Shown here: one piece after another, positions 1 through 14,173 of the stretch | Layout: every line of letters begins with the position of its first letter | How positions within the stretch are numbered: the stretch's first letter is position 1 | Assembly: GCA_017405115.1 (NCBI GenBank) | Contig: JAFRBA010000214.1 | Coordinates: 1-14,173 of the forward strand | Reading direction: 5' to 3' | DNA length: 14,173 nucleotides | Origin: Kiritimatiellia bacterium | GTDB lineage: Bacteria > Verrucomicrobiota > Kiritimatiellia > RFP12 > UBA1067 | Notes under the pieces: generated by a model | The model's database searches: none | Seen by the model: only the letters and a program-made list of their open reading frames with translations | What the model was told of the DNA's origin: nothing | Program-made: the position numbers and the translations under genes

Positions 1-1
1 G

Positions 2-208
2 CCCGAGGTGGACGACGCGGAGGTGTCGACGAAGCTGTTCGGGGTGGATGGCGTCAAGGCGTGGGCGGTTCGTCCGTACGACTACATGGATCCCGTCCTC
101 GAGCCAAAACAGTCGGAGGTCACGGTGAAGTCGGTAAAGGGGGAGACCGTCTTCTCCGTCCCTCCGTTCAGGTACTACACGCTGCTGATTGTCCGCAGAT
201 ATGAATAA
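2..208 (+). CDS. C-terminal end of an unidentified protein, truncated by the window start
   Basis: An open frame runs in from the left edge and ends at TAA 206-208, giving 68 codons and no visible start. The last residues (FSVPPFRYYTLLIVRRYE) look like the final strands of a beta-sandwich. The pattern of a proline, hydrophobic residues, then YYTLLIV is common at the C-termini of bacterial glycoside hydrolases with a terminal beta-domain. The stop overlaps the ATG of the next gene (ATGAATAA, 201-208), so the two are probably co-transcribed and translationally coupled. Given the GH20 and GH29 genes downstream, another glycan-active enzyme is plausible, but too little sequence is present to name a family. 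I am fairly sure the frame is coding and unsure of its function. Confidence 0.6.
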   Translation, partial: PEVDDAEVSTKLFGVDGVKAWAVRPYDYMDPVLEPKQSEVTVKSVKGETVFSVPPFRYYTLLIVRRYE

Positions 209-1157
209 GGCGATTTTCACAGTTCCGTTTTTAATCTTCGCGGTCGCCGCAATTGCGGGCGAAGTGGTGCCTGCCCTCGGCACGGAAAGCCGAGTGGGCG
301 GTGTCGTTCTAAGGGGGCGTGGATGCCTGTACGTCGCCTGCGGAAGCAATATCGGCGGGAAGAACCAGATCAAGAGGCTTGCGCTCGGGGCGGACGGCAT
401 TCCGACGTCAGCCGAGGGGGTAGGGGAGGTCGACAAGGCGGGGCTTGGCGGATCCTCCGCCGCGATTTCGGGCCGGTGGCTTTTCGTCGTCGGAGGCGCC
501 TTGGGCGACAAGGTGGTGCGTTTCACGATCATGGACGACGGTTCGCTTTCAGGACGCGCAGAGCTGCCGATTGCGCGCCCAGAGGAAAATGCCCTGCGCA
601 GCGTCGGGCTTGTCGCGAGCGGTAGTCATCTCGTGGCCATTGGCGGATGGCAGACGCGTCAGGTGTTCACGGCAAAGGTCGGGCAGGACGGTTCGCTAGA
701 GCCGTGGGTCAAGCGAAGGCCGCTGCCGGCGATATGCTTTTGCCAGGGCAGGTGCTTTCGGATTGGCAAGCGCATCTACGTCTCTGGCAACCAGGTATTC
801 AAGGGCGCCACAGACCGCGTCTACTCCGCAGAAGTGGACGAAGAAGGTTTGCCTACGAAGTGGCAGAGATGGGCGGAGCTCCCGGAATCGACCGGAAAAT
901 ACGATTTTCGCGAGATGCCGGGCGGGCAGCGCGTTTTCTACCGCAGCGAGGAAACTGGCTGCATGTACGTCGCGCCGATTGTCGAAGATGGAGAAATCGG
1001 GGAATGGACCAAGCTGGGGGGCAGGTTCCCCGTTTTGGACTATGTTTCCGTCCTGGCCTTTCCGCTCAACGACAAATGGATATTGCGCTACAGCAACCTT
1101 AGCGGCGACCCGCGCAAGTTCCATCCCGCAGACCTCATATCCCTAAATTGCCAGTGA
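201..1157 (+). CDS. Secreted kelch-like beta-propeller protein
   Basis: A 318-aa protein starting at ATG 201, which overlaps the upstream stop; a TTG at 189 is in frame but leaves the signal peptide less well placed. Residues 1-20 (MNKAIFTVPFLIFAVAAIAG) are a Sec signal peptide. The rest contains recurring short hydrophobic strands at about residues 43 (LYVACGS), 94 (LFVVGG), 144 (LVAIGG), 192 (IYVSGN), 255 (MYVAPI) and 293 (WILRYS). Their spacing is roughly 40-60 residues, and they alternate with turns such as DDGSL, QDGSLEPW and EDGEIGEW. This is the periodicity of a kelch or galactose-oxidase-like propeller with about six blades. No catalytic residues are recognisable. It lies 5 bases before the GH20 gene, so it probably acts with these hydrolases, perhaps by binding glycan. 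The propeller assignment is inference from the repeats. Confidence 0.7.
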   Translation: MNKAIFTVPFLIFAVAAIAGEVVPALGTESRVGGVVLRGRGCLYVACGSNIGGKNQIKRLALGADGIPTSAEGVGEVDKAGLGGSSAAISGRWLFVVGGALGDKVVRFTIMDDGSLSGRAELPIARPEENALRSVGLVASGSHLVAIGGWQTRQVFTAKVGQDGSLEPWVKRRPLPAICFCQGRCFRIGKRIYVSGNQVFKGATDRVYSAEVDEEGLPTKWQRWAELPESTGKYDFREMPGGQRVFYRSEETGCMYVAPIVEDGEIGEWTKLGGRFPVLDYVSVLAFPLNDKWILRYSNLSGDPRKFHPADLISLNCQ

Positions 1158-1162
1158 AGACA

Positions 1163-2656
1163 ATGAGAGCGACATTTTCCCTTTGCCTGTCCATGGCGGC
1201 CGCTGCCGCGCTCGGGGGCGAGAAGCCGGCGCTGCGGCCCAAGGTCTGTCCAACGCCGGTGCGCGCCGAGATCGCGGCCGCGGACTATGTTCCGCTGCGC
1301 CGCCTGACGCTCAGCTGCGGCGACGCGCAGGCGGCCGACTGGGTGCGCCGGCATCTCTCCGCGTGGTATGGCCGGCACATGCCGGAGCTTGCAGTCGGAG
1401 GCGGGCCGATTCCCGAAGGGCCTGAGGAATACCTCCTGTCGGCGGACGCAGGGGGCGTGCGGATGTCGGCAGGCTCTCTCGCCGGCGCGCGCTGGGCGAT
1501 GCAGACGCTGCGGCAGCTGGCGATCCCGGAACGAGGCACGGAGAAAGTCGAGGGATGGATCGTGCCAGTCTGCAGAATCGACGACTGCCCGGCGATGGCG
1601 TTCCGCGCGATGCACGTCTGCTGGTTCCCCGAGACGGCCGAGTGGCAGGTCGAACGGCTCGTCCGCCTCGCCGGCGCGTACAAGATGAACTACGTAGTCC
1701 TCGAGCCGTGGGGAACCTTCGACAGCAGGGTCGCGCCGTGGTATGCGTGGAGCGGACAGGCGAAGATGACTAAGCCTGTACTGGCCCGTCTGCGCGTGCT
1801 TGCGGCGGATCTCGGCGTGACGCTTGTGCCGCAGCTCAACGTGTTCGGGCACGCCACGATGAGCCGCGTAGCTGCCGGCAAGCACGCGGCGCTCGACTTC
1901 CATCCGGAATACCAGCCGCTCTTCGAGCCGATGGGCGGCTGGAACTGGTGCCTGACTAATCCGGCGACGCGCAAGCTCCTGGTGGCGCTCATCGGCGAAC
2001 TTTGCGAGGCGTTCGGGAATCCACCGTACTTCCATCTCGGCTGCGACGAGGCGAATCCGCCGAGCTGCCCCGACTGCATGAAGCGTCCGTATTCGGAAAT
2101 ACTGCTGGAGCATGTCCGCGCGATGAACGACGCGGTCGCGGCGCGCGGGGCGAAGTCGATGATGTGGCACGACCAGCTGCTGGAGCAAGGCGACGAGCGC
2201 TGGAAGGGCTTCTACGCCTACGGAACGCGCGAGACGGCCGCCGCGGCGAAGGGCCTGCCGAAGGACATCGTCATCTGCGACTGGCACTACGCCGGTCCGA
2301 AGACGAACTATCCGACGATGAAGTACTTCTCCGACCTCGGCTTCAAGGTCGTCACCTGCCCCTGGCAGGACAAGGACGGCATCGCCGCGCAGGGCGCGTT
2401 TGCGCGGACCAACGGACTTTTCGGCGTCATGGGGACGTACTGGCACCACTTCCACGGGCAGAACCTGCCCAAGATCGCCGTCAACACGGCGTGCGCGGCG
2501 TGGGGGACGCCGCTCGACGAGCTTGACCGCCCGTGGAACCACGTCAGGTTCATGAACGACCTGCGGCGCATCGGCTGGGACATGAATGCGGCGGACTACG
2601 ACCGCACGGGCGTATACATGAAGCAGACAGTGCCGGTCTCGGCGCAGGACGACTGA
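1163..2656 (+). CDS. Secreted GH20 beta-N-acetylhexosaminidase-like enzyme
   Basis: A 497-aa protein starting at ATG 1163, 5 bases after the previous stop; TTG 1148 and GTG 1154 are in-frame alternatives, but ATG 1163 gives a clean signal peptide (MRATFSLCLSMAAAAALGG). Residues about 25-130 resemble the GH20b domain, with the typical YLLSADAGGVRM and GARWAMQTLRQL elements. The catalytic barrel follows: FGHA at 228-231 corresponds to the family's GH motif, and HLGCDE ends in Asp295-Glu296, the substrate-assisted catalytic pair. GH20 enzymes release terminal GlcNAc or GalNAc, with the Asp orienting the substrate acetamido group and the Glu acting as acid/base. The motif reads HLGCDE rather than the usual HxGGDE, and the C-terminal half departs from classical hexosaminidases, so the exact substrate is uncertain. 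The GH29 neighbour suggests fucosylated, HexNAc-containing glycans. Confidence 0.85.
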   Translation: MRATFSLCLSMAAAAALGGEKPALRPKVCPTPVRAEIAAADYVPLRRLTLSCGDAQAADWVRRHLSAWYGRHMPELAVGGGPIPEGPEEYLLSADAGGVRMSAGSLAGARWAMQTLRQLAIPERGTEKVEGWIVPVCRIDDCPAMAFRAMHVCWFPETAEWQVERLVRLAGAYKMNYVVLEPWGTFDSRVAPWYAWSGQAKMTKPVLARLRVLAADLGVTLVPQLNVFGHATMSRVAAGKHAALDFHPEYQPLFEPMGGWNWCLTNPATRKLLVALIGELCEAFGNPPYFHLGCDEANPPSCPDCMKRPYSEILLEHVRAMNDAVAARGAKSMMWHDQLLEQGDERWKGFYAYGTRETAAAAKGLPKDIVICDWHYAGPKTNYPTMKYFSDLGFKVVTCPWQDKDGIAAQGAFARTNGLFGVMGTYWHHFHGQNLPKIAVNTACAAWGTPLDELDRPWNHVRFMNDLRRIGWDMNAADYDRTGVYMKQTVPVSAQDD

Positions 2657-2677
2657 CTTTGCAGGTAAAAAGTACAC

Positions 2678-2682
2678 AAGGA
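2678..2682 (+). promoter_or_regulatory. Shine-Dalgarno of the GH29-esterase gene
   Basis: AAGGA lies 6 nt before ATG 2689 in the 32-nt gap after the GH20 stop. It decides the start among three in-frame ATGs (2689, 2695, 2701) in favour of the first. It is the only clear Shine-Dalgarno I see in the window and contrasts with the promoter-proximal genes, which have none. Confidence 0.65.
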
Positions 2683-2688
2683 AAGACA

Positions 2689-4722
2689 ATGACAATGAAC
2701 ATGACGAGGTTTGCAGGCTCCACGGCACTGGCGCTGGCTTTAGCGGCCGGGGCGCTCCTTGCGGACAACATCGCGCCGAAGCTGACGGCGTACAACGAGA
2801 ACCCCACTAAGGAGAACCTTGCGGCGCGCGAGCTCTTCCGCCAGCGCGCGTTCGGCCTGTTCATACACTACGGCCCGTATTCGGTGTCCGGCAACGGCGA
2901 GTGGCAGATGTTCCAGGACGCCATCGAGCCCGAGGAGTATTTCGCCGAGCGCCTGCCGCGCTTCAAGCCCAAGGCCGGCTGCGTGGACGAGTGGATACGC
3001 CTCGCGAAGGATACCGGCATGCGCTACGTCGTGATGACGACGCGCCACCACGACGGCTACTGGCTCGGCGACGACTTCATCCGCGAGTACACGACGAAGG
3101 TGCGCGAGGCCGGCCTTGGCGTGGGCGTCTACTTCTCGGTCACCGACTGGTGCGACCCGGGCTTCCGCGCGGGCAACAAGAAGGATCCCGAAGGGTGGAA
3201 GAGGTTCGTCGGCAAGGCGCATCGCCTCCTGAAGCACCTCATGTCGGACTTCGGGAAGATCGAGTACCTCTTCTACGACGGCTGCCCGCCGCCGGACGAG
3301 TGGGACCTCGCCGGCATCAACGCCGAGATGCGCAGGCTCCAGCCGCACCTCCTCATCTGCCGCGGCCACAAGGACTGCGACTTCAAGAGCTGCGAGGGCA
3401 ACGTCGCGTTCGACGGCGCCCCGCTCTGGGAGGCGTGCTACACGTTCAACGACAGCTGGGGGTACAACAAGAACGACTTCAACTTCAAGCCGATTCACAA
3501 GACGGCGTCGATGTTCTTCTCTATGCGGCACAACGGCGGGAACTTCCTGCTGAACGTCGGGCCAATGGCGGACGGCACCGTGCAGCCGGAGGCGGCCGAG
3601 CGCCTGCGCGAGCTCGGCAAGTGGGTGAGGGCCAACGAGGAGGCTATATTCGACGTCGTGCCCCATCCGTTCAGCTATGCGCCGCGCGAGCTGACGGTCG
3701 GCAGCCGCACGACCCCGTCCGTAGTCTACTGGATGGACTACCGTCCGCGCCCTGGCCGTACGGTCATCGGCATCGGCAACAAGGTCCGGCGCATGTCGTA
3801 TCTCGACAACGGGGAGGAGATCGCGTTCCGGCAGGACGTCTCGGGCGTCACTCCGAGGCTGATACTGCCCGATGCGAGGCCGAGCGCGCCAGGCGCAATG
3901 CCGCGCATCGTGAAGATCGAGCTCGACGGTGCGCCCAACGGAGTCTTCAGCGACCGCGTCATGCCGAAGCTTGCGGGGAACCGCAAGGACCAGACGCTCG
4001 AGAGGATCGCCAGGACGTGCAAGGTGACGCGCGAGGACGAGTTCCACGGCTTTGAGCGCGTAGTGTTCGACTTCAAGGGCCACGAGGCGTGGGTCGTCTT
4101 CCCGAAGGGCGTCCCGGCGAAGGGCCGTCCCTGGACGTGGACCATGCAGTGGCCGACGGCCTTCGTGCCGCGCACAGGCGTCCTGAAGCTCCTTGATGAG
4201 GGCTTCCACCACGTGACGATCGGCAGCCTCCGCGAGATGGATGCGGAAGGGCTCGCCGTCGCCGCAGAGTTCCAGAAGTTCCTTGTCGACGAGCTGGGCT
4301 TCGCGCCGAAGGCAAGCCTTGTCGGCATGAGCTGGGGCGGATTCTACTCAATTCGCTATGCGGCGGCGCATCCGGAGAACGTGCGTAGGATATATCTCGA
4401 CGCGCCGCTTCTCACGTTCTCCCCCGGCAAGGTGGTCGGCACCGGCTCGTGGAAGGAGCGCGCCCCGGCGGACGGCGACTGGCTCAAGGATCCGGAGATG
4501 CCTATCAACAAGACCGAGCTTGTTGCGAAGGCCGGCATCCCCGTGCTGCTGCTGTACGGCGGGCAGGACCAGACCGTGCCGCCGGAGACCAATGCGGAGC
4601 TGTTCGAGAAGCGCTTCCGCGAAGCAGGCGGGGACATCAAGGTCGTGAAGCGTAATTTGTTCGGGCATCATCCCCACGGCGACGAGGAGAGCTCCGTCAG
4701 AATCGTAGACTTCCTCAGGTAG
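2689..4722 (+). CDS. Secreted GH29 alpha-L-fucosidase fused to an alpha/beta-hydrolase (probable esterase)
   Basis: A 677-aa protein with a signal peptide (residues 1-25, ending LLA-DN). Residues about 45-340 are a GH29 barrel: FGLFIHYGPYS (55-65), TTRHHDGY (117-124), YLFYDG with Asp197 as the expected nucleophile, FNDSWGY, and GGNFLLNVGPMADG. GH29 enzymes remove alpha-L-fucose with retention of configuration. A beta-rich linker leads to residues about 420-677, an alpha/beta-hydrolase: GMSWGG nucleophile elbow with Ser548, YGGQDQTVPP with Asp627, and FGHHPHGD supplying the catalytic His (660, 661 or 663). This second domain resembles bacterial carbohydrate-esterase-like hydrolases with a GMSxGG elbow. 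GH29 proteins usually end after one barrel plus a beta-domain, so the fusion is unusual. One polypeptide may remove both fucose and an ester such as acetyl from one glycan; the ester substrate is inference. The gene is last in its cluster and convergent with mfd, with 39 bp between stops and no convincing U-tract terminator. Confidence 0.88.
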   Translation: MTMNMTRFAGSTALALALAAGALLADNIAPKLTAYNENPTKENLAARELFRQRAFGLFIHYGPYSVSGNGEWQMFQDAIEPEEYFAERLPRFKPKAGCVDEWIRLAKDTGMRYVVMTTRHHDGYWLGDDFIREYTTKVREAGLGVGVYFSVTDWCDPGFRAGNKKDPEGWKRFVGKAHRLLKHLMSDFGKIEYLFYDGCPPPDEWDLAGINAEMRRLQPHLLICRGHKDCDFKSCEGNVAFDGAPLWEACYTFNDSWGYNKNDFNFKPIHKTASMFFSMRHNGGNFLLNVGPMADGTVQPEAAERLRELGKWVRANEEAIFDVVPHPFSYAPRELTVGSRTTPSVVYWMDYRPRPGRTVIGIGNKVRRMSYLDNGEEIAFRQDVSGVTPRLILPDARPSAPGAMPRIVKIELDGAPNGVFSDRVMPKLAGNRKDQTLERIARTCKVTREDEFHGFERVVFDFKGHEAWVVFPKGVPAKGRPWTWTMQWPTAFVPRTGVLKLLDEGFHHVTIGSLREMDAEGLAVAAEFQKFLVDELGFAPKASLVGMSWGGFYSIRYAAAHPENVRRIYLDAPLLTFSPGKVVGTGSWKERAPADGDWLKDPEMPINKTELVAKAGIPVLLLYGGQDQTVPPETNAELFEKRFREAGGDIKVVKRNLFGHHPHGDEESSVRIVDFLR

Positions 4723-4761
4723 CGACGCATTCGCGCGGCGCTAGGCAGACAATCGGACCAT

Positions 4762-7700
4762 TCAACTGCGCGTGGTTCCGGGTCTGCGTCGCCCAAATCG
4801 CACGGCAGCGCGGATCAGCTCGGATATCTTCCCGCTCGCCGTGCGGCTCCTGAGGGTCTCGACGCTGGAGATCTCGCCGGACCCCGCCTTGTAGAACACC
4901 GCGCGGCTGCCCGTCATGTCTATGCGGTCTATGCTGGCCGCCGCGCAGGCGACGCGCAGGGCGACGGTGCTCACGAACTCCTTCGCCTCGGGCGGCGGCG
5001 GGCCGAAGCGGTCGCGCATCTCGTCCTCGAGCGCCCGCACGACTCGCATGTCCTGTGCCTCCGCGAACCTCTTCATGAGGCTCATCCTCTGCACGTCCTC
5101 CTCGATGTACTCGCAGGGCAGCCGCGGATTCGTGAAGTCCAGGTTCAGCTTTACGTCCACCACCTCCCGGACCTTCTCGCCCTTCAGCCGCGCAATGGTG
5201 CGCTGCAGCAGCTGGCAGTACAGCCCAAAGCCGACGGCCGCTATGTGGCCGGACTGCTGGGAACCGAGCAGGTTCCCCGCTCCGCGCAGCTCCAGGTCGC
5301 GCACCGCCAGGTTGAAGCCGCTTCCGAGCCCGCCGTGGCGCTTCAGCGCCGCAAGGCGCTCGCGCGCCTCAGAGTCCACCGAGCCCGAGGCAGGCAGCAG
5401 GAAGTACGCGTATCCCTGCCTGGCCGACCGCCCCACGCGCCCGCGCAGCTGGTAGAGGTCCGCCATGCCGAAAGTCTCCGCCTGGTCGACCAGTATCGTG
5501 TTCGCCCTCGGTATGTCGATGCCGGACTCCACGATCGTAGTGGAGAGCAGCACATCGTACTCGCCGCGTTCGAAGCCACGCATCTTCTTCGCGAGCGTGC
5601 GCGCGTCCATTCGCCCGTGCGCCACGACGATCCGCGCCTTCGGGCACAGCGCCCGCAGGCGGCGCTCGGCCTTCCCGATCGAGAACACGCGGTTGTGGAG
5701 GAAGTACACCTGCCCCCCGCGGCGCAACTCGGCCTCCACCGCCTCGCGGACGGTCTCGTCGGAGTCGCGCACGATCCGCGTCTCCACGGCGACGCGCTCC
5801 CGCGGCGGCGACCTTAGCAGCGAGAGGTCCCGCGCGCCGGTCATCGACAGGTAGAGCGTGCGCGGAATGGGCGTCGCCGACAGGGTGAGCACGTCGGCAG
5901 TCGCCCTGAGGCGCTTGAGGAACTCCTTGTGCCTCACGCCGAAGCGCTGCTCCTCGTCGATTATGATGAGCCCGAGGTCGTGGAAGCATATCCGGTCGGA
6001 AAGGATCGCGTGGGTGCCGATCACGATGTCGCATACGCCCGTCGCAAGCCGCTTGAAGGTGCCCTCGTGGACGCCGCCCGTCTGGAAGCGCGAGACGGAC
6101 TCTATCCGTATCGGCGTTCCGTCGAAGCGGGAGGTGAAGGTCTCGAAGTGCTGTTCCGCCAGCACGGTCGTCGGCGCGAGCACAGCGACCTGCTTGCCGT
6201 TCATGGCCGCGATGAACGCCGCGCGCATCGCCACCTCCGTCTTGCCGTATCCGGCGTCGCCGCAGATGAGCCTGTCCATCGGCTTGCTCGCGGCGAGGTC
6301 CTTCTTCACCGCCTCGATGGCGGACGCCTGGTCCGGGGTCTCTTCGTAGGGGAACGCGGCCTCGAATGCCTCGATCCCGTCGCAGTTGACGTCGTAGGCG
6401 AAGCCCGGCACGGTCTCCCGCCTGGCCTGCGTGTCGAGAAGCGCCGAGGCGAGGTCCGTCACGGCGCGCTGGGCGTTCAGCTTGTCCTTGGCCCAGCGCC
6501 TGCCGTCCAGGCGGTGAAGCCTCACTTCCTCGCCGCGCACGCCTATGTAGCGCGAGAGGAGGTGCGCATGGGCCGCTGGCACGTGGAGCATGCCGCCGTC
6601 CGCGTATTCGATCGAGAACACCTCGCTCCTGACGCCGTCGACGAGGATCTCCGAAGAGCCGACGTATCGCCCTACGCCGTGGTCTACGTGCACCACGTAC
6701 TCTCCCGGCTCGAGGTCCTCGAAGTCGGAGAGGCGGGCCCCGCGGGAGAGCGCCGGATTGCCCCTGGCGTGGATCTTGCGTCGGGTGAAGACGCGGTCCG
6801 CCTTCGTCACCACGACGAGCCCGCCGATCTCGAACCCTCCCGAGAGGTCGTCGGCGGAGAGGACGAGCGCCCCGCGCCGCCTTGCCGCGGCGATGTGCTG
6901 TTCGAGGCGCTGGCGCGCGGCGTCGAACAGCTCTGGATGGTGCGCCTCGTCAGCCCCAAGCTCTGCGAAGCCTGGAAGGGGAGACGTCTGGAAGTCGCCG
7001 GAGGGGACGCCTCGCGGCGCCGGATCGCCTGTGAAGACCCGGGTGGTGAACGTGCCGGGCGGCAGAAGGGGCGCGATGTCGTAGTCGTTGTGCTCGAGCG
7101 CGAGCAGCGTGCTGCCGGGGGGGATGAGGCCGGGCAGCGTCGGGCCGCCGTTCCCCTGTCCGCCGCCCTCGACGGCCGGCAGCAGTTCGCAGGCGTCTAT
7201 TCGGCCGATGGAAAGCTGCGTCGCGGCGTTGAAGGTGCGCAGGCTCTCCAGCTCGTCCCCGAAGAACTCGGCGCGGACGGGGAATTCGTCGCCTGGGCTC
7301 CAGGCGTCGACGATGCCGCCCCTGACAGAGCAGTCGCCTTCCTGTTCCACGAGCGGGGATCGCCTGTACCCCAGTTCGGCGAGACGCGCGGTAAGTTCGG
7401 AGAGCCCGGGCCCGCGGCCGCCGACAGAGAGCGACACGCCTTCCGCCGCCGCGCCGGTTGGCACCGGAGAGTAAAGCGCCGGAAACGCCGCCACCACCAC
7501 GCCGGGCCAAGGCGAAATCTCCCGCGCGCGAAGCGCCGCGATCGTCTTCAGCCGCGTGCCAAGAGCGGACTTGTCGCCGTCCAGCGGAGGAGGGAACTCC
7601 AGCACGCGCATTCCCGTAGGCGCCACGAGGCGCAGGTCGTCGGCGAGGCGGTCGGCGTCCGGCAGCCCCGGCGTGACCGCGAGGACGAGCCCTTCGCGTG

Positions 7701-7827
7701 CGAGCGCGACGGCGAGAAACGCGTCGGCCGCGCCGGTAAGGGACGGGATGCAAACGGCCCTCTCCCCGCCGGGGATCCCCCCGGGGGGCTTGAAGTACGA
7801 GGCGAACAGCTGACGCGCATTTTCCAT
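4762..7827 (-). CDS. mfd: Transcription-repair coupling factor Mfd
   Basis: A 1021-aa protein. Mfd removes RNA polymerase stalled at DNA lesions using ATP-driven translocation and recruits UvrA for nucleotide excision repair. Visible domains are: an N-terminal UvrB-like part (1 to about 330) with the conserved SVRGGIVDAW segment; the RNAP-interaction domain at about 370-430 (GEYVVHVDHGVGRY); the first helicase domain with Walker A GDAGYGKTEV from residue 523, DEEQ at 624-627 and TLSATPIPRTLYLSM; the second helicase domain with STTIVESGIDIPRANT and QLRGRVGRS; and a C-terminal D7-like domain (PCEYIEEDVQRMSLMKRF). It is somewhat shorter than the usual 1100-1150 aa, apparently at the N-terminus. 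ATG 7827 is preferred because a TATAAT box at 7840-7845 lies just upstream; the earlier in-frame ATG at 7872 would put the promoter inside the coding sequence. It is transcribed independently of the flanking genes. Confidence 0.96.
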   Translation of the reverse strand: MENARQLFASYFKPPGGIPGGERAVCIPSLTGAADAFLAVALAREGLVLAVTPGLPDADRLADDLRLVAPTGMRVLEFPPPLDGDKSALGTRLKTIAALRAREISPWPGVVVAAFPALYSPVPTGAAAEGVSLSVGGRGPGLSELTARLAELGYRRSPLVEQEGDCSVRGGIVDAWSPGDEFPVRAEFFGDELESLRTFNAATQLSIGRIDACELLPAVEGGGQGNGGPTLPGLIPPGSTLLALEHNDYDIAPLLPPGTFTTRVFTGDPAPRGVPSGDFQTSPLPGFAELGADEAHHPELFDAARQRLEQHIAAARRRGALVLSADDLSGGFEIGGLVVVTKADRVFTRRKIHARGNPALSRGARLSDFEDLEPGEYVVHVDHGVGRYVGSSEILVDGVRSEVFSIEYADGGMLHVPAAHAHLLSRYIGVRGEEVRLHRLDGRRWAKDKLNAQRAVTDLASALLDTQARRETVPGFAYDVNCDGIEAFEAAFPYEETPDQASAIEAVKKDLAASKPMDRLICGDAGYGKTEVAMRAAFIAAMNGKQVAVLAPTTVLAEQHFETFTSRFDGTPIRIESVSRFQTGGVHEGTFKRLATGVCDIVIGTHAILSDRICFHDLGLIIIDEEQRFGVRHKEFLKRLRATADVLTLSATPIPRTLYLSMTGARDLSLLRSPPRERVAVETRIVRDSDETVREAVEAELRRGGQVYFLHNRVFSIGKAERRLRALCPKARIVVAHGRMDARTLAKKMRGFERGEYDVLLSTTIVESGIDIPRANTILVDQAETFGMADLYQLRGRVGRSARQGYAYFLLPASGSVDSEARERLAALKRHGGLGSGFNLAVRDLELRGAGNLLGSQQSGHIAAVGFGLYCQLLQRTIARLKGEKVREVVDVKLNLDFTNPRLPCEYIEEDVQRMSLMKRFAEAQDMRVVRALEDEMRDRFGPPPPEAKEFVSTVALRVACAAASIDRIDMTGSRAVFYKAGSGEISSVETLRSRTASGKISELIRAAVRFGRRRPGTTRS

Positions 7828-7839
7828 CGCCGAGAGTGA

Positions 7840-7848
7840 ATTATACCA
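7840..7848 (-). promoter_or_regulatory. Extended -10 promoter of mfd, near-leaderless
   Basis: The minus strand reads TGGTATAAT, an extended -10 with a perfect TATAAT. No good -35 is present at 16-18 nt spacing. Counting the last T as -7 places +1 near 7833, about 6 nt before ATG 7827, and there is no Shine-Dalgarno between them. Confidence 0.75.
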
Positions 7849-7941
7849 CAAATCGGCATTGGTCGTAGACATGCAGCCGTCTGCGGAATGACTAATGCGC
7901 GAAGAAGAGCAAAGCCGTAGCCAACGCAAACCCAGTATACG

Positions 7942-8757
7942 CTATAGCTGATCGCATGGTTGCTTGACTGCGTATTCCGACAGCCACGCGGGGGTATAGC
8001 CCGTTGGGTTGAGCATTGCCGCCGCTAAGCCGTACGACTGTCTCGCCGCATCGTCCCGCGACATTGCACGCTCCGGCTTTACAATCTTGGCATAGTCGGT
8101 GTTTAGCCTGAACTCATGGTTTGCGTATTGCCGCGTGAACCCTTCCCGTGACTCTATCCACGCCGTCCAGAATGCGATTTCTTTTGCCGCGACATTCCTA
8201 AGCTCGACCTTCCCCTCCTTTTCGAACTTCTCCTTGTACTGCCTGAGGCGCAGAAATGTCAACGTCTCATAGGATGAAGCAAAATCAAAGTTTTTTCGCC
8301 TTGCGTAAACGCCGCCCAGGAACAGCGCAACCTCAGTGTTGGCCTTGACGAACCTTTCAAACTGCACCGGAGAATCGAAGTCTGACAACTTCGGTGCAAA
8401 ACGAAACGCTTTGTCAAACACCACGGTTAGCGGAGACTCTATCGGTGGTCTAATCTGCCAGGTGAGGTGGTCGTTAACTGACGGCATTTTTAGCATTGCA
8501 ATGCGCATCGCCATTATGTCGCGATTAGTGTATGCCTGTGCAATGTCGCGGTAAATGCCAATCATCTCTTCCTTTACGCTGTCAGAAACGCCGACACACC
8601 CCGCCCGGAATTTCGCATGCGCCGCACGCACTCGTTCTTCTTCCAGTTGTTGCACCTGACTTCGCAACCGCCGCGTTTCGCGTACAAGATGAACCGTCAG
8701 CAGTACTGATACAGCGAGAACCGCAAGATAGACGCATTTCTTCATTTTGTGGCTCAT
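7942..8757 (-). CDS. Membrane-anchored protein of unknown function with a short coiled coil
   Basis: I do not recognise the family. The start at ATG 8757 (MSHKMKKC...) lies 10 nt after the upstream stop; ATG 8745 (MKKC...) is an alternative, and there is no Shine-Dalgarno. The 271-aa product has a hydrophobic segment at about residues 8-22 (YLAVLAVSVLLTVHLV), then a charged amphipathic helix (RRLRSQVQQLEEERVRAAHAKF) likely to be a short coiled coil, then a mostly helical soluble region without catalytic motifs. Topology is probably N-in, with the bulk in the periplasm. It is the last of three consecutive minus-strand genes, after a secreted Cys-rich protein and a lipoprotein, so a role at the same envelope site is likely. 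GC (about 48% in a sampled line) is well below that of mfd next door (about 68%). Confidence 0.75.
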   Translation of the reverse strand: MSHKMKKCVYLAVLAVSVLLTVHLVRETRRLRSQVQQLEEERVRAAHAKFRAGCVGVSDSVKEEMIGIYRDIAQAYTNRDIMAMRIAMLKMPSVNDHLTWQIRPPIESPLTVVFDKAFRFAPKLSDFDSPVQFERFVKANTEVALFLGGVYARRKNFDFASSYETLTFLRLRQYKEKFEKEGKVELRNVAAKEIAFWTAWIESREGFTRQYANHEFRLNTDYAKIVKPERAMSRDDAARQSYGLAAAMLNPTGYTPAWLSEYAVKQPCDQL

Positions 8758-8767
8758 GGGACGTTTG

Positions 8768-9526
8768 TCACATACACCATTTTGGCTTGCGACCGAGGCG
8801 CTTCGACACGCGAGCAATCATCTTGCTTGCCCTGCCTGGGTTCTCTTTGCAAAACTTTGCAAGGATGCTGCTCTCGGAGTCAACCACAAGATTGCAAGTG
8901 GCGCTCAATGTGCCTCGGCAAAGACTGGCCTGATGCATGAAATTGCAATGCGCACGACCATATTTGCCGCCTGCAAATCTCGCATCTCGTCCGGACTCGC
9001 AAGCACCTGCCAACTCGAACTTACGTGCCGTCTCGTAACATTTCCGCGCCTCCATTTCGCATCGCCGCGCTTCCGCTTCACAACGCTCACGTTCGGCGTC
9101 GAAGAAGTCAAGTTCCCTAAACCAACATTCCAATGCCTCCTCGCGTCCACCGCTCACGCTTGAATACATTCCGCGTGCCACAAATAGAAGCTCTCGAATC
9201 CACGACTCAGTGTATTGCCATCCTTGGAAATCAAGTTGTCGAAGATCCGTCCGAAGCGCCGTGTTTTCAAGCCCTCGCGCAATGTAGAAAACTTCAACAT
9301 CATTTGACAGCGCCGAACACATCTTGAATATGCCTCTGTTGAATTCGCCACGATCTTGAAGGCGTTTGGATGCAATCAGCTTCGGCAATGTCGAGATGTA
9401 CTTTGCAACTTCCAGGCAGTTGCTTGATGCATTCGCGGGAATGGCGTCGTCGTGCCTTGTCCTTTTGCATCCAGCAAATGAAGCAACGAGAGCGGCCAGC
9501 ACACAAACCTTGATCACGCGCTTCAT
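8768..9526 (-). CDS. Predicted lipoprotein with a heptad-spaced cysteine helix
   Basis: A 252-aa protein whose ATG (9526-9524) overlaps the upstream stop in an ATGA junction, indicating translational coupling. Residues 1-20 form a lipoprotein signal with lipobox SFAG-C (Cys20 the predicted lipidated residue). The rest is mainly helical. Near residues 147-175 lies an acidic/basic helix with cysteines at 149, 156 and 163, exactly 7 residues apart, encoded by a three-unit 21-nt imperfect tandem repeat (9020-9082). On a helix those cysteines would line one face, suggesting disulfide-linked oligomers or metal or heme contact; this is inference. No known family is recognised. It sits between the large secreted protein and the membrane-anchored protein and likely belongs to the same envelope assembly. 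Base composition is lower in GC than the flanking conserved genes. Confidence 0.78.
   Translation of the reverse strand: MKRVIKVCVLAALVASFAGCKRTRHDDAIPANASSNCLEVAKYISTLPKLIASKRLQDRGEFNRGIFKMCSALSNDVEVFYIARGLENTALRTDLRQLDFQGWQYTESWIRELLFVARGMYSSVSGGREEALECWFRELDFFDAERERCEAEARRCEMEARKCYETARKFELAGACESGRDARFAGGKYGRAHCNFMHQASLCRGTLSATCNLVVDSESSILAKFCKENPGRASKMIARVSKRLGRKPKWCM
9020..9082 (-). repeat. Three-unit 21-nt tandem repeat encoding Cys heptads
   Basis: On the minus strand, units at 9082-9062, 9061-9041 and 9040-9020 align without gaps. Each begins with a Cys codon (TGT, TGC, TGT) and encodes the seven-residue pattern C-E/Y-x-E-A/T-R-R/K with small variations (CEAEARR, CEMEARK, CYETARK). 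The first two units are the most alike and the third is more diverged. This looks like an in-frame duplication that built the Cys-bearing helix of the lipoprotein. Confidence 0.75.
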
Positions 9527-12072
9527 TTCTTTTGCACTCCATTCAAGTATATGTGGTCGTCGATTGTTCTATGGACTTCCATGTCGTATTTTTCTATCTG
9601 CATCGTACCGTTAGTTGTCAACACAAACACCTGATCATGCGAAAAATCATGCTGCATCTCCTTGACGACAGGCCCAGTTGATCCGCGGGCACGCCAACCG
9701 ATTGGGATGAACCACACTTTCTCACCTGCACACCAATCTGCATCCAAATAATAATTCTGAGTGACTACGTCAACTCCAAAACTGTTGCTCGCATTTATCG
9801 CTATCCATTCCCCGGCTCCCATGCTGACCGTATGATACCAGAAAGGCATGTCAGACAACCGGTTGAAATACCCAGTGTGCGATCCTGTTTCAGAAGGCAC
9901 CTCCTGCATGTCTATCTCGCTAAACGACACCGACTCAGGGATGACAAACGTTGGCATTCTCATCCCGGCACCGCCAGGGGTCCCAACCGGGAAATGCAAA
10001 TCATAAATATATGGATTTCTGCAAATGACATTCTGGGGCTCAACAACCGTTATTGAAAAGGTGTATGTTACATCGGCAAACGCGACCGACAAGTCGGCAA
10101 TCTCATCATTTGTCAATGGACAGAGGTATATGCTCCTTTTGCCAGCAGTCGTTGAAGCAAAAGCTGTAGAACCACGAGATGAGTACCACGCAATTAAATT
10201 AAGAAGCGGACTCGAATTCAACTTGATGCGCTCATTTACCCCGTATGTATGGCGTGTGCTGTTGGTAAAGGCTGGTGCGGTCTGCATCGCCTCCAGCTCA
10301 ACCTTCACACTCGTGATCTTCGACTGAGACGACACCGGCGTTGCACCCTCCGCGTTCTCCGTGAACGTCGTCGTAACGACGATGTCCTCGGCGTCTGTGC
10401 TTGGCAGCTGGCCCTTGTAGACGATGGTGAAGTCAAGATTCTTGCCGGGCAAGACCTCCTGCTCGACGGGAAGGAGGTGTCCGGAGACGCGCTCCAGCTT
10501 GTTTTCGCCCGCGATCTCGAATCGGACGTGTCCGCCGTTCGGGCCGCCGTGCGCTACGCAATGAAGCTCCGTCTGCGATGACTGACGCTCGACCCACACA
10601 CCGGGCGCATTCTCGTAACGATCCTCGAATATGACCGCACTCTTCGAGAAGGTCGCCGAAGCGCCTGCGGCATATGGTCCGTCGTCATCGCCCTGTTCCG
10701 GGCTAGGATCGTACGCGCCGCTGCATCCGCACCACCCTCCGCACGCAGGGAGACTGTAGCCCTCGTATCCGTAATAGCCAGTGGCAGAGCAACCTCCGCA
10801 ATGGCATGCGTCGTTGCAGGAATACGCGAACATTCCACCTCCAAGTGAACTGATGTTACAGCAGCTGTTCGTCCACGTGAATCCACCGCCGAGGCAGTCG
10901 GGCCAGACGGACATCGCGAACGACGCGCCGCTTCGCATGCCCACGCACTCAATCTCAACCGGCCAAACAATTTGAAGTTCCGTCGCCGAGACCTGGTCGA
11001 CCTCTATCTCGCCGATCGACTGCCCGATGCAAGCTATCGGCATGCGGCTCGTGACATGGTACGTCTTGCCAATGAGCAGAATGACGCGGTTCGTCGCCCC
11101 AGCCTTGGCGACAAACGTCGGATCGGGCAGGGTCGAATAGCCATCGCCAATGAACGTCACGAGCGCGTTGGCATCGGGCACGACGAGGTCTACCCAGCAG
11201 TATGCGTTGGAGCTCGCCCCCTCGGGCAGCGTCTGGTGCGGGCCGAAGTTGTCGCCGTCGTATGCGAGCGGCTGGATGTCGCCGTCGTTCGGGATGCCGT
11301 CGTCGTCCCAGTCGTCGGGGTTGACGCGGCGATATAGTCGTTCCACGAGATTGGAGCGCGCAATGAAGTCGCCGGACGGCATAAGCTCCAGCTGCGCCGA
11401 GACGGGCGTGTTCGTGTCGCGGTTCAAGAAGAAGTTCTCCCAGGTGAGGAGGTGCGATCGGTTGGTGGTTGGCGCATCCCAGAAGCGCGAGACCTGCGGC
11501 ACCGCCGACATCGGAGCGCCCGTCGCGACGATGCGGTTCGACGCATCGCCGAGACGCGCGCCCGCCATGCCCCACGTGTAGACCCAGAGCGTGTCGCAGA
11601 GGTTCGTGCCGAGCGGGAAGAGCAGCCCGTCCAAGTCAAGGCGGAACACGTCCTCGTACGCCCCGCGAAGCCACCAGTTCTCGCGGCGCATTCCGTTCGT
11701 CGGCATAGCATAGGAATACGTCTCGTTCGTCGTCTCGGACTCGAGCCTGAATGAGTGTAAAGTTGAAAGTGTAGAGTGTAAAATTGTGGAGTCGCCTGCG
11801 GCGACGACACCTCCATTCTCCACTTTCCATTTTACACTTTCCACTCTCAACTCTACACTTGCGCCCCTCGGCGGCTCGTTCGTGCCGCCGGGCTTCTGGG
11901 CGCAGACGGTGGCAATGGCGACAAAGAAAAGAAACGCCGCAAGACGTGCGCGAGAAACCTTCGCGAGCGCGTCCGTCGCGCGGGCGAAGCATCCGCGATA
12001 TCGCAACACAAACCACGCGGCAAAGAGAACCGCCGCGCCGACAAGGCAGAGTTTTGTCAGGAAGTTCGTCAT
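9523..12072 (-). CDS. Large secreted or membrane-anchored Cys-rich protein, lineage-specific family of unknown function
   Basis: An 849-aa protein starting at ATG 12072, about 5 nt after the predicted transcription start of its promoter. Two N-terminal hydrophobic segments (about 6-24 and 44-58) separated by a basic stretch suggest a membrane anchor or a second signal with cleavage near VCA-Q. Residues about 73-105 are encoded by an inserted heptamer repeat element. Then come a conserved-looking block (VFRLDLDGLLFPLGTN), an Asp-rich NPDDWDDDGIPNDGD segment near 250-264 resembling a thrombospondin type-3 calcium-binding repeat, and a Cys-rich module near 403-450 (CC, CNDACHCGGC, GGWCGC) followed by AVIFEDRYENAPG. 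The C-terminal third appears beta-rich. I associate this architecture with Kiritimatiellota secreted proteins, from memory and not verified. GC falls sharply downstream of about 10330, so residues from about 582 onward may have a different origin. Function is unknown. Confidence 0.85.
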   Translation of the reverse strand: MTNFLTKLCLVGAAVLFAAWFVLRYRGCFARATDALAKVSRARLAAFLFFVAIATVCAQKPGGTNEPPRGASVELRVESVKWKVENGGVVAAGDSTILHSTLSTLHSFRLESETTNETYSYAMPTNGMRRENWWLRGAYEDVFRLDLDGLLFPLGTNLCDTLWVYTWGMAGARLGDASNRIVATGAPMSAVPQVSRFWDAPTTNRSHLLTWENFFLNRDTNTPVSAQLELMPSGDFIARSNLVERLYRRVNPDDWDDDGIPNDGDIQPLAYDGDNFGPHQTLPEGASSNAYCWVDLVVPDANALVTFIGDGYSTLPDPTFVAKAGATNRVILLIGKTYHVTSRMPIACIGQSIGEIEVDQVSATELQIVWPVEIECVGMRSGASFAMSVWPDCLGGGFTWTNSCCNISSLGGGMFAYSCNDACHCGGCSATGYYGYEGYSLPACGGWCGCSGAYDPSPEQGDDDGPYAAGASATFSKSAVIFEDRYENAPGVWVERQSSQTELHCVAHGGPNGGHVRFEIAGENKLERVSGHLLPVEQEVLPGKNLDFTIVYKGQLPSTDAEDIVVTTTFTENAEGATPVSSQSKITSVKVELEAMQTAPAFTNSTRHTYGVNERIKLNSSPLLNLIAWYSSRGSTAFASTTAGKRSIYLCPLTNDEIADLSVAFADVTYTFSITVVEPQNVICRNPYIYDLHFPVGTPGGAGMRMPTFVIPESVSFSEIDMQEVPSETGSHTGYFNRLSDMPFWYHTVSMGAGEWIAINASNSFGVDVVTQNYYLDADWCAGEKVWFIPIGWRARGSTGPVVKEMQHDFSHDQVFVLTTNGTMQIEKYDMEVHRTIDDHIYLNGVQKK
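11754..11860. repeat. Heptamer-built inverted-repeat element with a GC hairpin core, inserted in a CDS
   Basis: On the plus strand the left arm is AGTGTAA, AGTTGAA, AGTGTAG, AGTGTAA (11754-11781), then AATTGTGGA. A GC core follows: GTCGCC-TGC-GGCGAC (11791-11805), a 6-bp stem with a 3-nt loop. The right arm is CCATTCT, CCACTTT, CCATTTT, ACACTTT, CCACTCT, CAACTCT, ACACTT (11813-11860), whose reverse complement is again AGTGTAG, AGTTGAG, AGTGGAA and so on. Both arms are therefore arrays of one degenerate 7-nt unit (about AGTGKAR) in opposite orientation around the hairpin. Three units make 21 nt, so a frame is kept every third unit and reads like VESVKWK in the host gene. No target-site duplication is obvious. 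Confidence 0.8.
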
Positions 12073-12083
12073 GTGTAAGGGGT

Positions 12084-12092
12084 ATTATACCA
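12084..12092 (-). promoter_or_regulatory. Extended -10 promoter of the 849-aa gene and its operon, near-leaderless
   Basis: The minus strand reads TGGTATAAT preceded by TTT. Predicted +1 is near 12077, 5 nt before ATG 12072. No Shine-Dalgarno and no recognisable -35 hexamer are present. It is back to back with the lolC promoter. Confidence 0.75.
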
Positions 12093-12095
12093 AAA

Positions 12096-12123
12096 CCGCC
12101 GCGCGGTACGGCCGTAGCGGCGG
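12096..12123. promoter_or_regulatory. Inverted repeat between divergent promoters, possible operator
   Basis: CCGCCGC (12096-12102) and GCGGCGG (12117-12123) are a perfect 7-bp inverted repeat. The interval contains a perfect 10-bp palindrome, TACGGCCGTA (12107-12116). The two dyads have slightly different centres. The structure spans the -35 positions of both outward-facing promoters, where a shared regulator could bind. High GC raises the chance that this is coincidental. Confidence 0.4.
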
Positions 12124-12136
12124 GGCGTCCGCAATA

Positions 12137-12145
12137 TGGTATAAT
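12137..12145 (+). promoter_or_regulatory. Extended -10 promoter of lolC, leaderless
   Basis: TGGTATAAT with no recognisable -35. If the final T is -7, +1 is base 12152, the G of the GTG start codon. The ATG at 12146 directly abuts the box and would not be in the transcript. Confidence 0.75.
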
Positions 12146-12151
12146 ATGCGC

Positions 12152-13375
12152 GTGAGCTTCTCTCTCTTTCTAGCCGCGAAGTACCTGAAGCCGACGCGTT
12201 CGGTCGCCTCGGTCATCACGTGCGTGTCCGTTCTGGGCGTCATGCTCGGCGTCGCGGTCGTCGTGATCGTCCGCAGCGTGATGACGGGCTTCGGCGACAT
12301 ATGGGAGGAGAAGATACTGGACTTCAAGCCCCACGTGTCCCTTGTGCCGGTCTATGGCAACGTGGTCCACGGAGAGGACGAAGTCGCCGCGAAGGCGCGC
12401 GCTGTGCCCGGGGTGACGTGCGTCACGCCCGAGATAGACACGCGTGTGCTGCTGTCGCACCGCGGCCGGGTGCTCGCGCCCGTCATGCTGGGCGTGGACG
12501 GCGACGACTTCACGCGCGCATACCGCATCGGGGCGCCGCGGGCGGGGACGTTCGACCTTTCGGGGGACTCGCTGGTGCTGGGCGCGACGGCGGCCAGGTC
12601 GCTCGGCGTCTGGGTCGGCGACGAGGTCGTCGTGTACTCTCCGAAGACGCTTGTGGCGAGGGACGAGATATTCCTGCCGGTGAAGTGGAAGGTGGCCGGC
12701 ATCTTCTCGTGCGGGCAGCACGAGTACGACTCGGGCTACGCCGTGGCGTCGCTGCCGAACGTGCGGGACCTCATGGGCATGGAGAAGGGCGTCTTCGCGG
12801 TGCACGTGAAGACCGACTGCCCGACGGACAGGGCGAAGTTCGAGGCGGTCTGCACGGCGCTTTCCGAGTGCGCGCCGCATCTGCGCCAGATAACGTGGCG
12901 CGAGGCGGACCGGGAGATATTCAGCGCACTGGCGGTGGAGAAGAACATGACGGCGCTGCTGCTCTCGCTGATCTCCCTCGTGGCGGTCTTCTGCGTGATG
13001 AACACCCTCCTGGTGCTTACGGTGCAGAAGACCCCGGAGATCGGGCTCCTGAAGGCGCTAGGCTTCCGGAACTGGCAGATCATGAAGGTCTTCATGGTGC
13101 ACGGGATGATCCAGTGCGGGGTGGGGATAGCGCTGGGGCTGTTGGCGTCCTGGGCGGTCCTCTCGAACCTGCAGGGGATAGTGGAGTGGCTTGCGAAGAT
13201 GGGGCTGGAGGTCTTTCCGGCGTCCGTCTACGGGCTTGCGACGATACCCCACCGGCTTATCGTGTCGGACATATTCTGGGTCGTCGGACTTGTCTTCGTG
13301 TTCGGCCTGCTGGCCTCCTTCGTCCCGGCGCTCTGCGCGGCGATGAAGGATCCCGTCCGCGCACTGAACCAGTAG
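12152..13375 (+). CDS. LolC/LolE-family lipoprotein-releasing ABC transporter permease
   Basis: A 407-aa inner-membrane protein, matching the family's usual 400-415 aa. The LolCDE complex extracts mature lipoproteins from the inner membrane and passes them to LolA for delivery to the outer membrane. GTG 12152 gives the typical start MSFSLFLAAKYLKPTRS; ATG 12146 is two codons earlier but abuts the -10 box. TM1 is about residues 20-42. A periplasmic MacB-like domain follows (to about 265), then three C-terminal TMs at about 267-290, 315-338 and 374-396. The FtsX-type segment MNTLLVLTVQKTPEIGLLKALGF is clear. LolC and LolE cannot be told apart confidently, so no symbol is assigned. No LolD ATPase lies in the window; since lysS follows 54 bp downstream, it may lie beyond. 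The gene is divergent from a secreted-protein operon that includes a lipoprotein, a possible Lol substrate. Confidence 0.92.
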   Translation: MSFSLFLAAKYLKPTRSVASVITCVSVLGVMLGVAVVVIVRSVMTGFGDIWEEKILDFKPHVSLVPVYGNVVHGEDEVAAKARAVPGVTCVTPEIDTRVLLSHRGRVLAPVMLGVDGDDFTRAYRIGAPRAGTFDLSGDSLVLGATAARSLGVWVGDEVVVYSPKTLVARDEIFLPVKWKVAGIFSCGQHEYDSGYAVASLPNVRDLMGMEKGVFAVHVKTDCPTDRAKFEAVCTALSECAPHLRQITWREADREIFSALAVEKNMTALLLSLISLVAVFCVMNTLLVLTVQKTPEIGLLKALGFRNWQIMKVFMVHGMIQCGVGIALGLLASWAVLSNLQGIVEWLAKMGLEVFPASVYGLATIPHRLIVSDIFWVVGLVFVFGLLASFVPALCAAMKDPVRALNQ

Positions 13376-13378
13376 CGG

Positions 13379-13400
13379 TGCTGGGCAAGTTGCCCGAGCA
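13379..13400 (+). terminator. Hairpin after lolC, weak terminator or attenuation structure
   Basis: TGCT-GGGC (13379-13386), loop AAGTT, then GCCC-G-AGCA (13392-13400) forms an 8-bp stem with one bulged G, starting 3 nt after the lolC stop. No U-tract follows, so it is not a canonical intrinsic terminator. Its right arm overlaps the candidate lysS -35 (TTGCCC, 13390-13395). Confidence 0.3.
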
Positions 13401-13410
13401 GGGGACATTG

Positions 13411-13419
13411 TGGTAAAAT
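13411..13419 (+). promoter_or_regulatory. Extended -10 promoter of lysS, near-leaderless
   Basis: TGGTAAAAT with a possible -35, TTGCCC (13390-13395, 4 of 6 matches to TTGACA, 18-nt spacer). Predicted +1 is near 13426, about 4 nt before ATG 13430. There is no Shine-Dalgarno. Confidence 0.65.
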
Positions 13420-13429
13420 ACACCACGAC

Positions 13430-14173
13430 ATGGCACAGGAAACTAACGAATACAGGGAGCAGCGCCTCCAGAGCATGGCGGCTCTGAGGGAGATGGGCTT
13501 CGAGCCCTATGGCTGCAGATACGACCACGCCGACCTGCGCGACGTGCGCGCTGGCTTCGAGGAGGGCAAGGCCGTGCGCGTCGCGGGCAGGCTCCTCATG
13601 ATCCGCCGCATGGGCAAGATGAACTTCTGCACCATGAACGACGGCACCGACCGCTTCCAGCTCATCTTCAAGAGGGACGAGCTCTCCGAGGCGATGTTCG
13701 CGGGCTTCAAGCAGCTCAACCTCGGCGACATCATAGGCGCCGAGGGCTCGCTCTTCACGACCCAGAAGGGCGAGAAGTCCGTCGTCGTGAAGGAGTGGAC
13801 GATGCTAGCCAAGGCCCTCGAGCAGCCGCCGGAGAAGTTCCACGGCCTCGCCGACCAGGAGGAATGCTACCGCCGCCGCTACGTCGACCTGATGACCAAC
13901 GACGAGAGCCGCGAGCGCTTCTACACCCGCAGCCGCATCCTCATGGAGATCCGCAAGTACCTGTGGTCCAGGGGCTTCGTCGAGGTCGAGACGCCGATCC
14001 TGCAGGACCAGGCCGGCGGCGCCGCGGCAAAGCCGTTCTTCTCGCACTTCAACGCGCTCGACAAGGACTGTGTGATGCGCATCGCGCCCGAGCTCTACCT
14101 GAAGCGGCTCCTCGTCGGCGGAATGAACAAGGTGTTCGAGCTCGGGACGGACTTCCGCAACGAGGGCATCGAC
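13430..14173 (+). CDS. lysS: Lysyl-tRNA synthetase, class II, N-terminal 248 residues (runs off the window)
   Basis: The frame from ATG 13430 is open to the window end. LysS charges tRNA-Lys with lysine in the cytoplasm. The start gives a typical N-terminus (MAQETNEYREQRLQSMAALREMG), an anticodon-binding OB-fold at about residues 45-140 (VRVAGRLLMIRRMGKMNF, then FQLIFKRDEL and LGDIIGAEGSLF), the linker ECYRRRYVDLM, class II motif 1 at 182-189 (GFVEVETP), and the beginning of motif 2 at 242-248 (FRNEGID). The segment KPFFSHFNALDKDCVMRIAPELYLKRLLVGG is diagnostic for LysS. The rest of the catalytic domain, including motif 3, lies beyond the window. It has its own -10 box in the 54-bp gap after lolC but could also receive lolC read-through. 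Confidence 0.95.
   Translation, partial: MAQETNEYREQRLQSMAALREMGFEPYGCRYDHADLRDVRAGFEEGKAVRVAGRLLMIRRMGKMNFCTMNDGTDRFQLIFKRDELSEAMFAGFKQLNLGDIIGAEGSLFTTQKGEKSVVVKEWTMLAKALEQPPEKFHGLADQEECYRRRYVDLMTNDESRERFYTRSRILMEIRKYLWSRGFVEVETPILQDQAGGAAAKPFFSHFNALDKDCVMRIAPELYLKRLLVGGMNKVFELGTDFRNEGID

Follow-up and report, generated by a model that had tools for sequence, protein, structure and literature searches.

Leaderless genes with a –10-like box beside the start codon are established in Actinobacteria, Deinococcus-Thermus and other groups (PMC3160421; PMC12340547), and a survey put the share of bacterial species with predicted leaderless transcription at 21.6% (Lomsadze 2018, cited in PMC9581028). 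According to Zheng et al. (2011, PMC3160421), the proportion of such TA-led genes is about 20% for Actinobacteria and about 40% for Deinococcus-Thermus; the signal takes the form TAnnnT above 60% guanine-plus-cytosine (GC) content and TAtaaT at 40–60%, and several low-GC genomes show a peak of TG, strongest in Lactococcus. The main text of that paper contains neither 'Verrucomicrob' nor 'Lentisphaer'. Kiritimatiellae appear in an anti-Shine-Dalgarno (anti-SD) table of PMC10783764, which calls some Akkermansia SD-scarce. Among openly licensed PubMed Central papers, we found no report of leaderless genes in the clade considered here, and no paper on leaderless transcription starts or promoters in Verrucomicrobia or Akkermansia. 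Here we analyzed a contig of 14,173 nucleotides (nt) from a Kiritimatiellia bacterium (JAFRBA010000214.1, positions 1 to 14,173; hereafter, the window), in which four genes carry a TGG-TATAAT-type box immediately upstream of their start codons. The window comes from a lineage of Kiritimatiellae type that is uncultured and largely gut-dwelling: its Mfd protein is closest (79%) to that of a Kiritimatiellae metagenome-assembled genome (MAG) from goat ileum (locus L001, also its partner in the Mfd tree), and rumen or other animal gut is the stated source of many relatives.

The four genes are mfd, an open reading frame (ORF) of 849 aa, a lolC-type permease gene and lysS. On the minus strand, mfd (TRCF; 4762..7827, 1021 aa from the ATG at 7827; Pfam TRCF, CarD_TRCF_RID, UvrB_inter and DEAD) is preceded by TGGTATAAT at 7840..7848, 12 nt from the ATG, with a predicted leader of about 5–6 nt, and the 849-aa ORF (9523..12072; no Pfam family at E 0.001) by the same box at 12084..12092, 11 nt from the ATG, with a predicted leader of about 4–5 nt. 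On the plus strand, the FtsX/MacB permease gene (12152..13375; Pfam FtsX and MacB_PCD) follows TGGTATAAT at 12137..12145, which stands 6 nt from the GTG at 12152 that we take as its start and 0 nt from an in-frame ATG, whereas the 5΄ part of lysS (13430..14173, running off the window; Pfam tRNA-synt_2 and tRNA_anti-codon, a class II synthetase) follows the variant TGGTAAAAT at 13411..13419 by 10 nt, with a predicted leader of about 3–4 nt. The box coordinates and short gaps in a first-pass annotation of this DNA were all right, and no SD-like tetramer was seen by eye in the four gaps. The sequence AAGGA precedes another window gene, probably operon-internal, with its ATG at 2689; therefore, SD is also used in the window. 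At one mismatch or fewer, the window, with a GC content of 62.7%, holds six box matches, compared with a mean of 0.35 in dinucleotide shuffles, none of 200 of which reached six.

We consider it highly probable (roughly 88%), from the sequence statistics given below, that these boxes and their counterparts in related genomes are extended –10 elements (T-n-TGG-TATAAT) of housekeeping sigma-70-type promoters, from which transcription would start at the start codon or 0–6 nt before it. In extended –10 sigma-70 promoters, TGn lies right before TATAAT, a T stands further upstream, and little of a –35 element is required. We infer the +1 position from sigma-70 promoters in general. RNA polymerase would need little help from a –35 element to recognize TGnTATAAT, and transcription would begin about 7–8 nt 3΄ of the box, placing the mRNA 5΄ end at the AUG or GUG itself or a few nucleotides before it. 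The ribosome would then initiate at the 5΄-terminal codon without an SD. When located at least 20 nt upstream, the same type of promoter would produce a leader, usually with an SD.

This arrangement resembles that of TA-led genes, which exist alongside SD-led genes and have a –10-like box immediately before the start (PMC3160421), and that described for Deinococcus-Thermus (PMC12340547), where nearly one in three D. radiodurans genes has the motif, mostly about 6–7 bp before the ORF, next to a separate GGAG class. The motif of that study, however, is TANNNT, with TACACT as its commonest form, and was studied with transcript data and, apparently, reporter tests, whereas the element described here is T-n-TGG-TATAAT, belongs to another phylum and was identified from sequence alone. 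It also departs from the trend in PMC3160421, which is not a defining rule, because TGnTATAAT is nearly complete in clade samples with GC contents of 60.0 and 63.3%. The 59 loci of the clade range from 48.9 to 69.0% GC, with 38 at 60% or higher, and the contrast with the published TAnnnT trend is real but not extreme. Leaderless genes adjacent to a –10 box are known in other phyla; the novelty lies in this clade and in an extended –10 that is nearly complete in genomes largely rich in GC.

The genome-scale evidence comes entirely from relatives of the window. In the 3.9-Mb genome that contains L001 (G001), TGGTATAAT occurs 324 times, compared with 7 occurrences of the reversed word, and the pattern TGGTATAAT-N6-13-ATG (hereafter, a spaced hit) occurs 161 times, compared with 0 for the reversed control. 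Within 396 kb of this genome (L081–L100), 15 of 29 exact boxes were located 6–10 nt before an in-frame start, six at 15–40 nt, four at 41–250 nt and one at 0–5 nt, and three could not be placed. The enrichment at short spacing that the first-pass annotation expected across the genome is accordingly present in the nearest genomes.

We then pooled the window, 59 loci fetched by mfd and the samples of G001 and of a second genome, G140, to obtain 100 loci (1,696,722 bases). Locus L032 (from G191, a genome with 0 spaced hits) was excluded, and L056, L059, L060, L061 and L065 (from genomes with 0–7 hits, outside the clade) also stood outside this set. It contained 303 TGNTATAAT boxes, of which 254 were placed relative to a gene start no more than 120 nt away, 48 were unplaced and one was too near a sequence end. 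The distances of placed boxes showed a peak at 6 nt (18 boxes), 7 nt (41) and 8 nt (28), and the density of ATG at 6–8 nt was 33 per nt, compared with 4.08 expected from the overall ATG frequency. In a difference from extended –10 sigma-70 promoters in general, 145 of the 254 placed boxes stand 5–13 nt upstream of a start codon. When genes longer than 2400 nt were removed from the mfd loci, the peak at 6–8 nt remained (18, 41 and 22), and the counts at 11–13 nt fell to 4, 2 and 3; therefore, much of the far tail represents mfd itself. Distances of 0–5 nt accounted for only 12 boxes altogether, with at most five at any one distance, and for 10 of these 12 a second in-frame start was found at 6–11 nt, as a +1 near position 7 demands. 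The lolC gene is among them: its in-frame ATG would sit upstream of the predicted +1, and the GTG is the likelier start because the nearest orthologue (L195) has TGGTATAAT, 6 nt and then an ATG at the aligned position.

The presence of SD-like tetramers depended strongly on the distance between box and start. They were found in 0/89 genes at 5–8 nt, 1/56 at 9–13 nt and 1/11 at 14–19 nt, compared with 33/49 at 20–40 nt and 25/39 at 41–120 nt, and the difference between 5–13 nt (1/145) and 20–120 nt (58/88) was highly significant (Fisher P 4e-31). The same pattern was seen in each subset: 1/88 versus 27/41 in the mfd loci with the window, 0/31 versus 13/23 in G001, and 0/26 versus 18/24 in G140. 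In addition, ATG was the start codon of 137 of the 145 short-spaced genes, compared with 65 of 77 genes with a box at 15–60 nt (P 0.024).

To describe how common such starts are, a position weight matrix (PWM) was trained on the mfd loci and used to scan the 100 nt upstream of genes in the G001 and G140 samples; two training loci (L001 and L049) come from these tested genomes, and the count omits co-directional genes separated by a 30–49 nt gap and any gene whose start falls within 110 nt of the end of a fragment. A box at 5–13 nt was found for 25/123 operon heads in G001 and 28/100 in G140, compared with 4/126 and 6/133 internal genes, which bears out the bias toward operon heads foreseen in the first-pass annotation. 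For divergent heads, 20/36 (G001) and 16/26 (G140) had a box within 100 nt, 12 and 10 of them, respectively, at 5–13 nt. In G082, a genome outside the clade, no box was found at 5–13 nt for any of 188 heads or 77 internal genes. With heads and internal genes summed, SD accompanied 1/63 PWM boxes at 5–13 nt and 38/50 beyond 18 nt. A 400-kb sample of G069 was dropped, since the gene finder failed on it (102/181 head starts were GTG), and no TATAAT peak was seen there. The short-spaced genes include housekeeping genes, as had been noted; the further suggestion that leaderless translation may be a default mode was, however, overstated, because starts with this spacing are a large minority at operon heads and SD is still common. 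SD-like tetramers precede 76/126 (G001) and 86/133 (G140) internal genes, compared with 30 and 33 in a control stretch further upstream, and 57/137 and 39/114 heads, compared with 24 and 12. The 16S rRNA of G175, the sole clade 16S among three matches in 13 genomes searched, retains an intact anti-SD tail, CACCTCCTTT.

The box could in principle act in translation rather than transcription, if the ribosome or protein S1 bound it as an AT-rich, non-SD signal in an mRNA whose promoter lies further upstream, and AT-rich non-SD signals near starts have been described in other phyla (PMC5397173; PMC9581028). Transfer RNA (tRNA) units, which are untranslated, speak against this idea. The pattern TGNTAWAHT was found 14–33 nt upstream of 12 of 15 tRNA units of the clade (shuffled expectation, 0.08), compared with 1 of 15 outside it (expectation, 0.23); this pattern was written after the sequences had been seen, and one set beforehand matched 6/15 units in the clade and 0/9 outside. 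The presence of a related box at tRNA units marks it as a transcription signal, and a translational role was rejected on this ground. The box also stands 20–60 nt before SD-bearing genes, and its form is that of the sigma-70 extended –10, upstream T included. This T, two bases before TGn, is present in 123 of 145 short-spaced boxes, which fits the extended –10 consensus, and the PWM, learned with mismatches allowed, gave strong weights to TG and to every position of TATAAT. We accordingly regard a purely translational signal as very unlikely.

Two further explanations accept the box as a transcriptional element. It might be an ordinary –10 that falls near the start by chance, with functional mRNAs arising from upstream promoters and carrying longer leaders; start annotation in draft genomes is indeed uncertain, and a gene may have several promoters. 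Nevertheless, the distance peak rises far above background, it is precisely the short-spaced genes that lack an SD, and TATAAT has no peak near starts in samples of three genomes from outside the clade (G114, G109 and G082), so that we hold coincidence to be extremely unlikely. The strictness of the word and its restriction to one clade would also suit a regulon, with the box as the site at which a transcription factor or an alternative sigma factor specific to the clade binds. This is very improbable in our judgement, because the box serves housekeeping genes, tRNA units and many operon heads, including the divergent heads counted above, and because TATAAT ranks first in G001 and second in G140 among the 6-mers enriched upstream of heads.

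Several points weigh against the interpretation as extended –10 promoters of leaderless genes. Starts were chosen by coding score or as the nearest in-frame start, and single distances may be in error; moreover, 59 of the 100 pooled loci were obtained through mfd, a bias, with the same peak appearing in the G001 and G140 samples. The gaps of 10–12 nt in three of the four window genes lie in the tail of the lineage's distance distribution, away from its peak at 6–8 nt, and these genes, like the 9–13 nt class as a whole (56/145), would have leaders of about 2–7 nt and thus be only near-leaderless. At 5–8 nt there is little space for an SD, and its absence is partly forced; therefore, the return of SD at longer distances is the informative point. 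Finally, the first-pass annotation had supposed that these promoters hardly need a –35. This is partly supported: the highest column in the –35 stretch reaches 0.24 bits across the 145 short-spaced boxes, and the match to TTGACA at spacers of 16–18 is weak, but a residual –35 persists in a minority, with at least 4/6 matches in 33 of the 145, compared with 14.5 expected. The role of the –35 would probably be minor.

As judged from genome counts and a gene tree, the spaced box marks one clade. In a sample of the class (n = 97), 61 genomes had at least one spaced hit, and the highest counts were those of G001 (161), G079 (63), G031 (30) and G069 (15); in a sample of the family (n = 76), 66 had a spaced hit. 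No LysS identity to the window, compared for 72 genomes, fell between 66 and 77%. Genomes on the high side of this gap (n = 48) had 17–196 spaced hits (6.5–76.5 per Mb), and those on the low side (n = 24) had 0–12 (at most 2.9 per Mb). This comparison leaves out four of the 76 genomes, which gave no comparable match, namely G121 (11 hits), G137 (68), G139 (0) and G166 (27), and retains G132 and G155 with partial LysS matches. Among the 50 genomes behind L001–L050, 49 had 21–196 hits and G191 had 0. In 29 further genomes, 10 members of the clade had 18–173 hits, five Kiritimatiellota-like genomes outside the clade had 0–7 and 14 genomes of other phyla had 0–8, with 0–5 for the reversed controls. 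In the Mfd tree, a branch with full support in the Shimodaira-Hasegawa-like approximate likelihood ratio test (SH-aLRT) sets 55 box-rich genomes, the window and L032 apart from the rest. The tree was built by a quick method from 71 rows and carries a long-branch warning; 10 loci are absent from it, among them L056, L059, L060, L061 and L065, and the nearest relatives outside the clade are thus not placed.

Some genomes deviate from this pattern. The Mfd of L032 has a zero-length end branch among clade members, even though its MAG, G191, has 0 spaced hits, and L032 is probably a misbinned contig. G010, G026, G050, G059 and G069 have 4–15 spaced hits, many of which, among the matches listed, lie 6–8 nt before ATG; leaderless starts may therefore occur at a low level elsewhere in the class. 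G031, a class member with 30 spaced hits, is possibly another lineage with the trait. In G082, a slight excess of TAnnnT was seen at 6–8 nt (16 versus 9.1).

Upstream regions of orthologues, counted by hand for lysS and mfd, were mixed. The lysS gene of the nearest relative (L165) has the identical TGGTAAAAT and 10-nt gap. Among 30 lysS loci, eight had a box 7–11 nt before ATG (one of these, L170, also has a TTG at 2 nt), five had a looser TGGTA box at 23–27 nt, one had a box at 51 nt, one (L188) had TATAAT 42 nt before TTG, and 15 had none in the scanned stretch. For mfd, a TGN-TA-type box was located at 6–16 nt in 30 of 49 clade loci, with two more doubtful, and in 0 of 10 loci outside the clade. 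For lolC, a box was present in the 48 nt inspected only in the nearest of 30 orthologues (L195). A gene can thus switch its mode among relatives.

We also compared the housekeeping sigma factor. RpoD was present in all 21 genomes searched. Two columns of what we take to be region 3.2 hold K and P in 11/11 clade sequences and P and E/Q in 10/10 comparators (L245–L265), and further consistent differences separate clade and comparator RpoD beyond these columns. A link between the region 3.2 differences and start-site choice is possible, as a lead only. Changed DNA-contact regions of sigma were rejected as a cause: the HMIETIN helix and the stretch NVTRERIRQIEAKALRK, presumably the extended –10 and –35 helices, are alike by eye in the 21 RpoD C-termini. 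A broader proposal, which we advance as speculative and rather unlikely, is that the stem of the clade rewired its core promoter, so that a near-invariant extended –10, often doubling as the translation start signal, became established in largely GC-rich genomes together with the region 3.2 changes. If this were true, the clade would offer a natural setting in which to test how leaderless translation evolves jointly with the choice of start site by RNA polymerase.

In practical terms, gene callers that rely on SD may assign the wrong start codons in this clade, for which lolC of the window is an example. With the difference in regime between related genomes, together with the changes of mode in lysS, comparative tests of how leaderless translation evolves become possible.

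Two further box matches in the window, TGGTCTAAT at 8446 on the plus strand and TGGTATCAT at 9832 on the minus strand, lie away from the four starts. In addition, the 849-aa gene contains an inverted repeat (11754–11784 and 11829–11859) with 31-nt arms that are 87% complementary and 44 nt apart.

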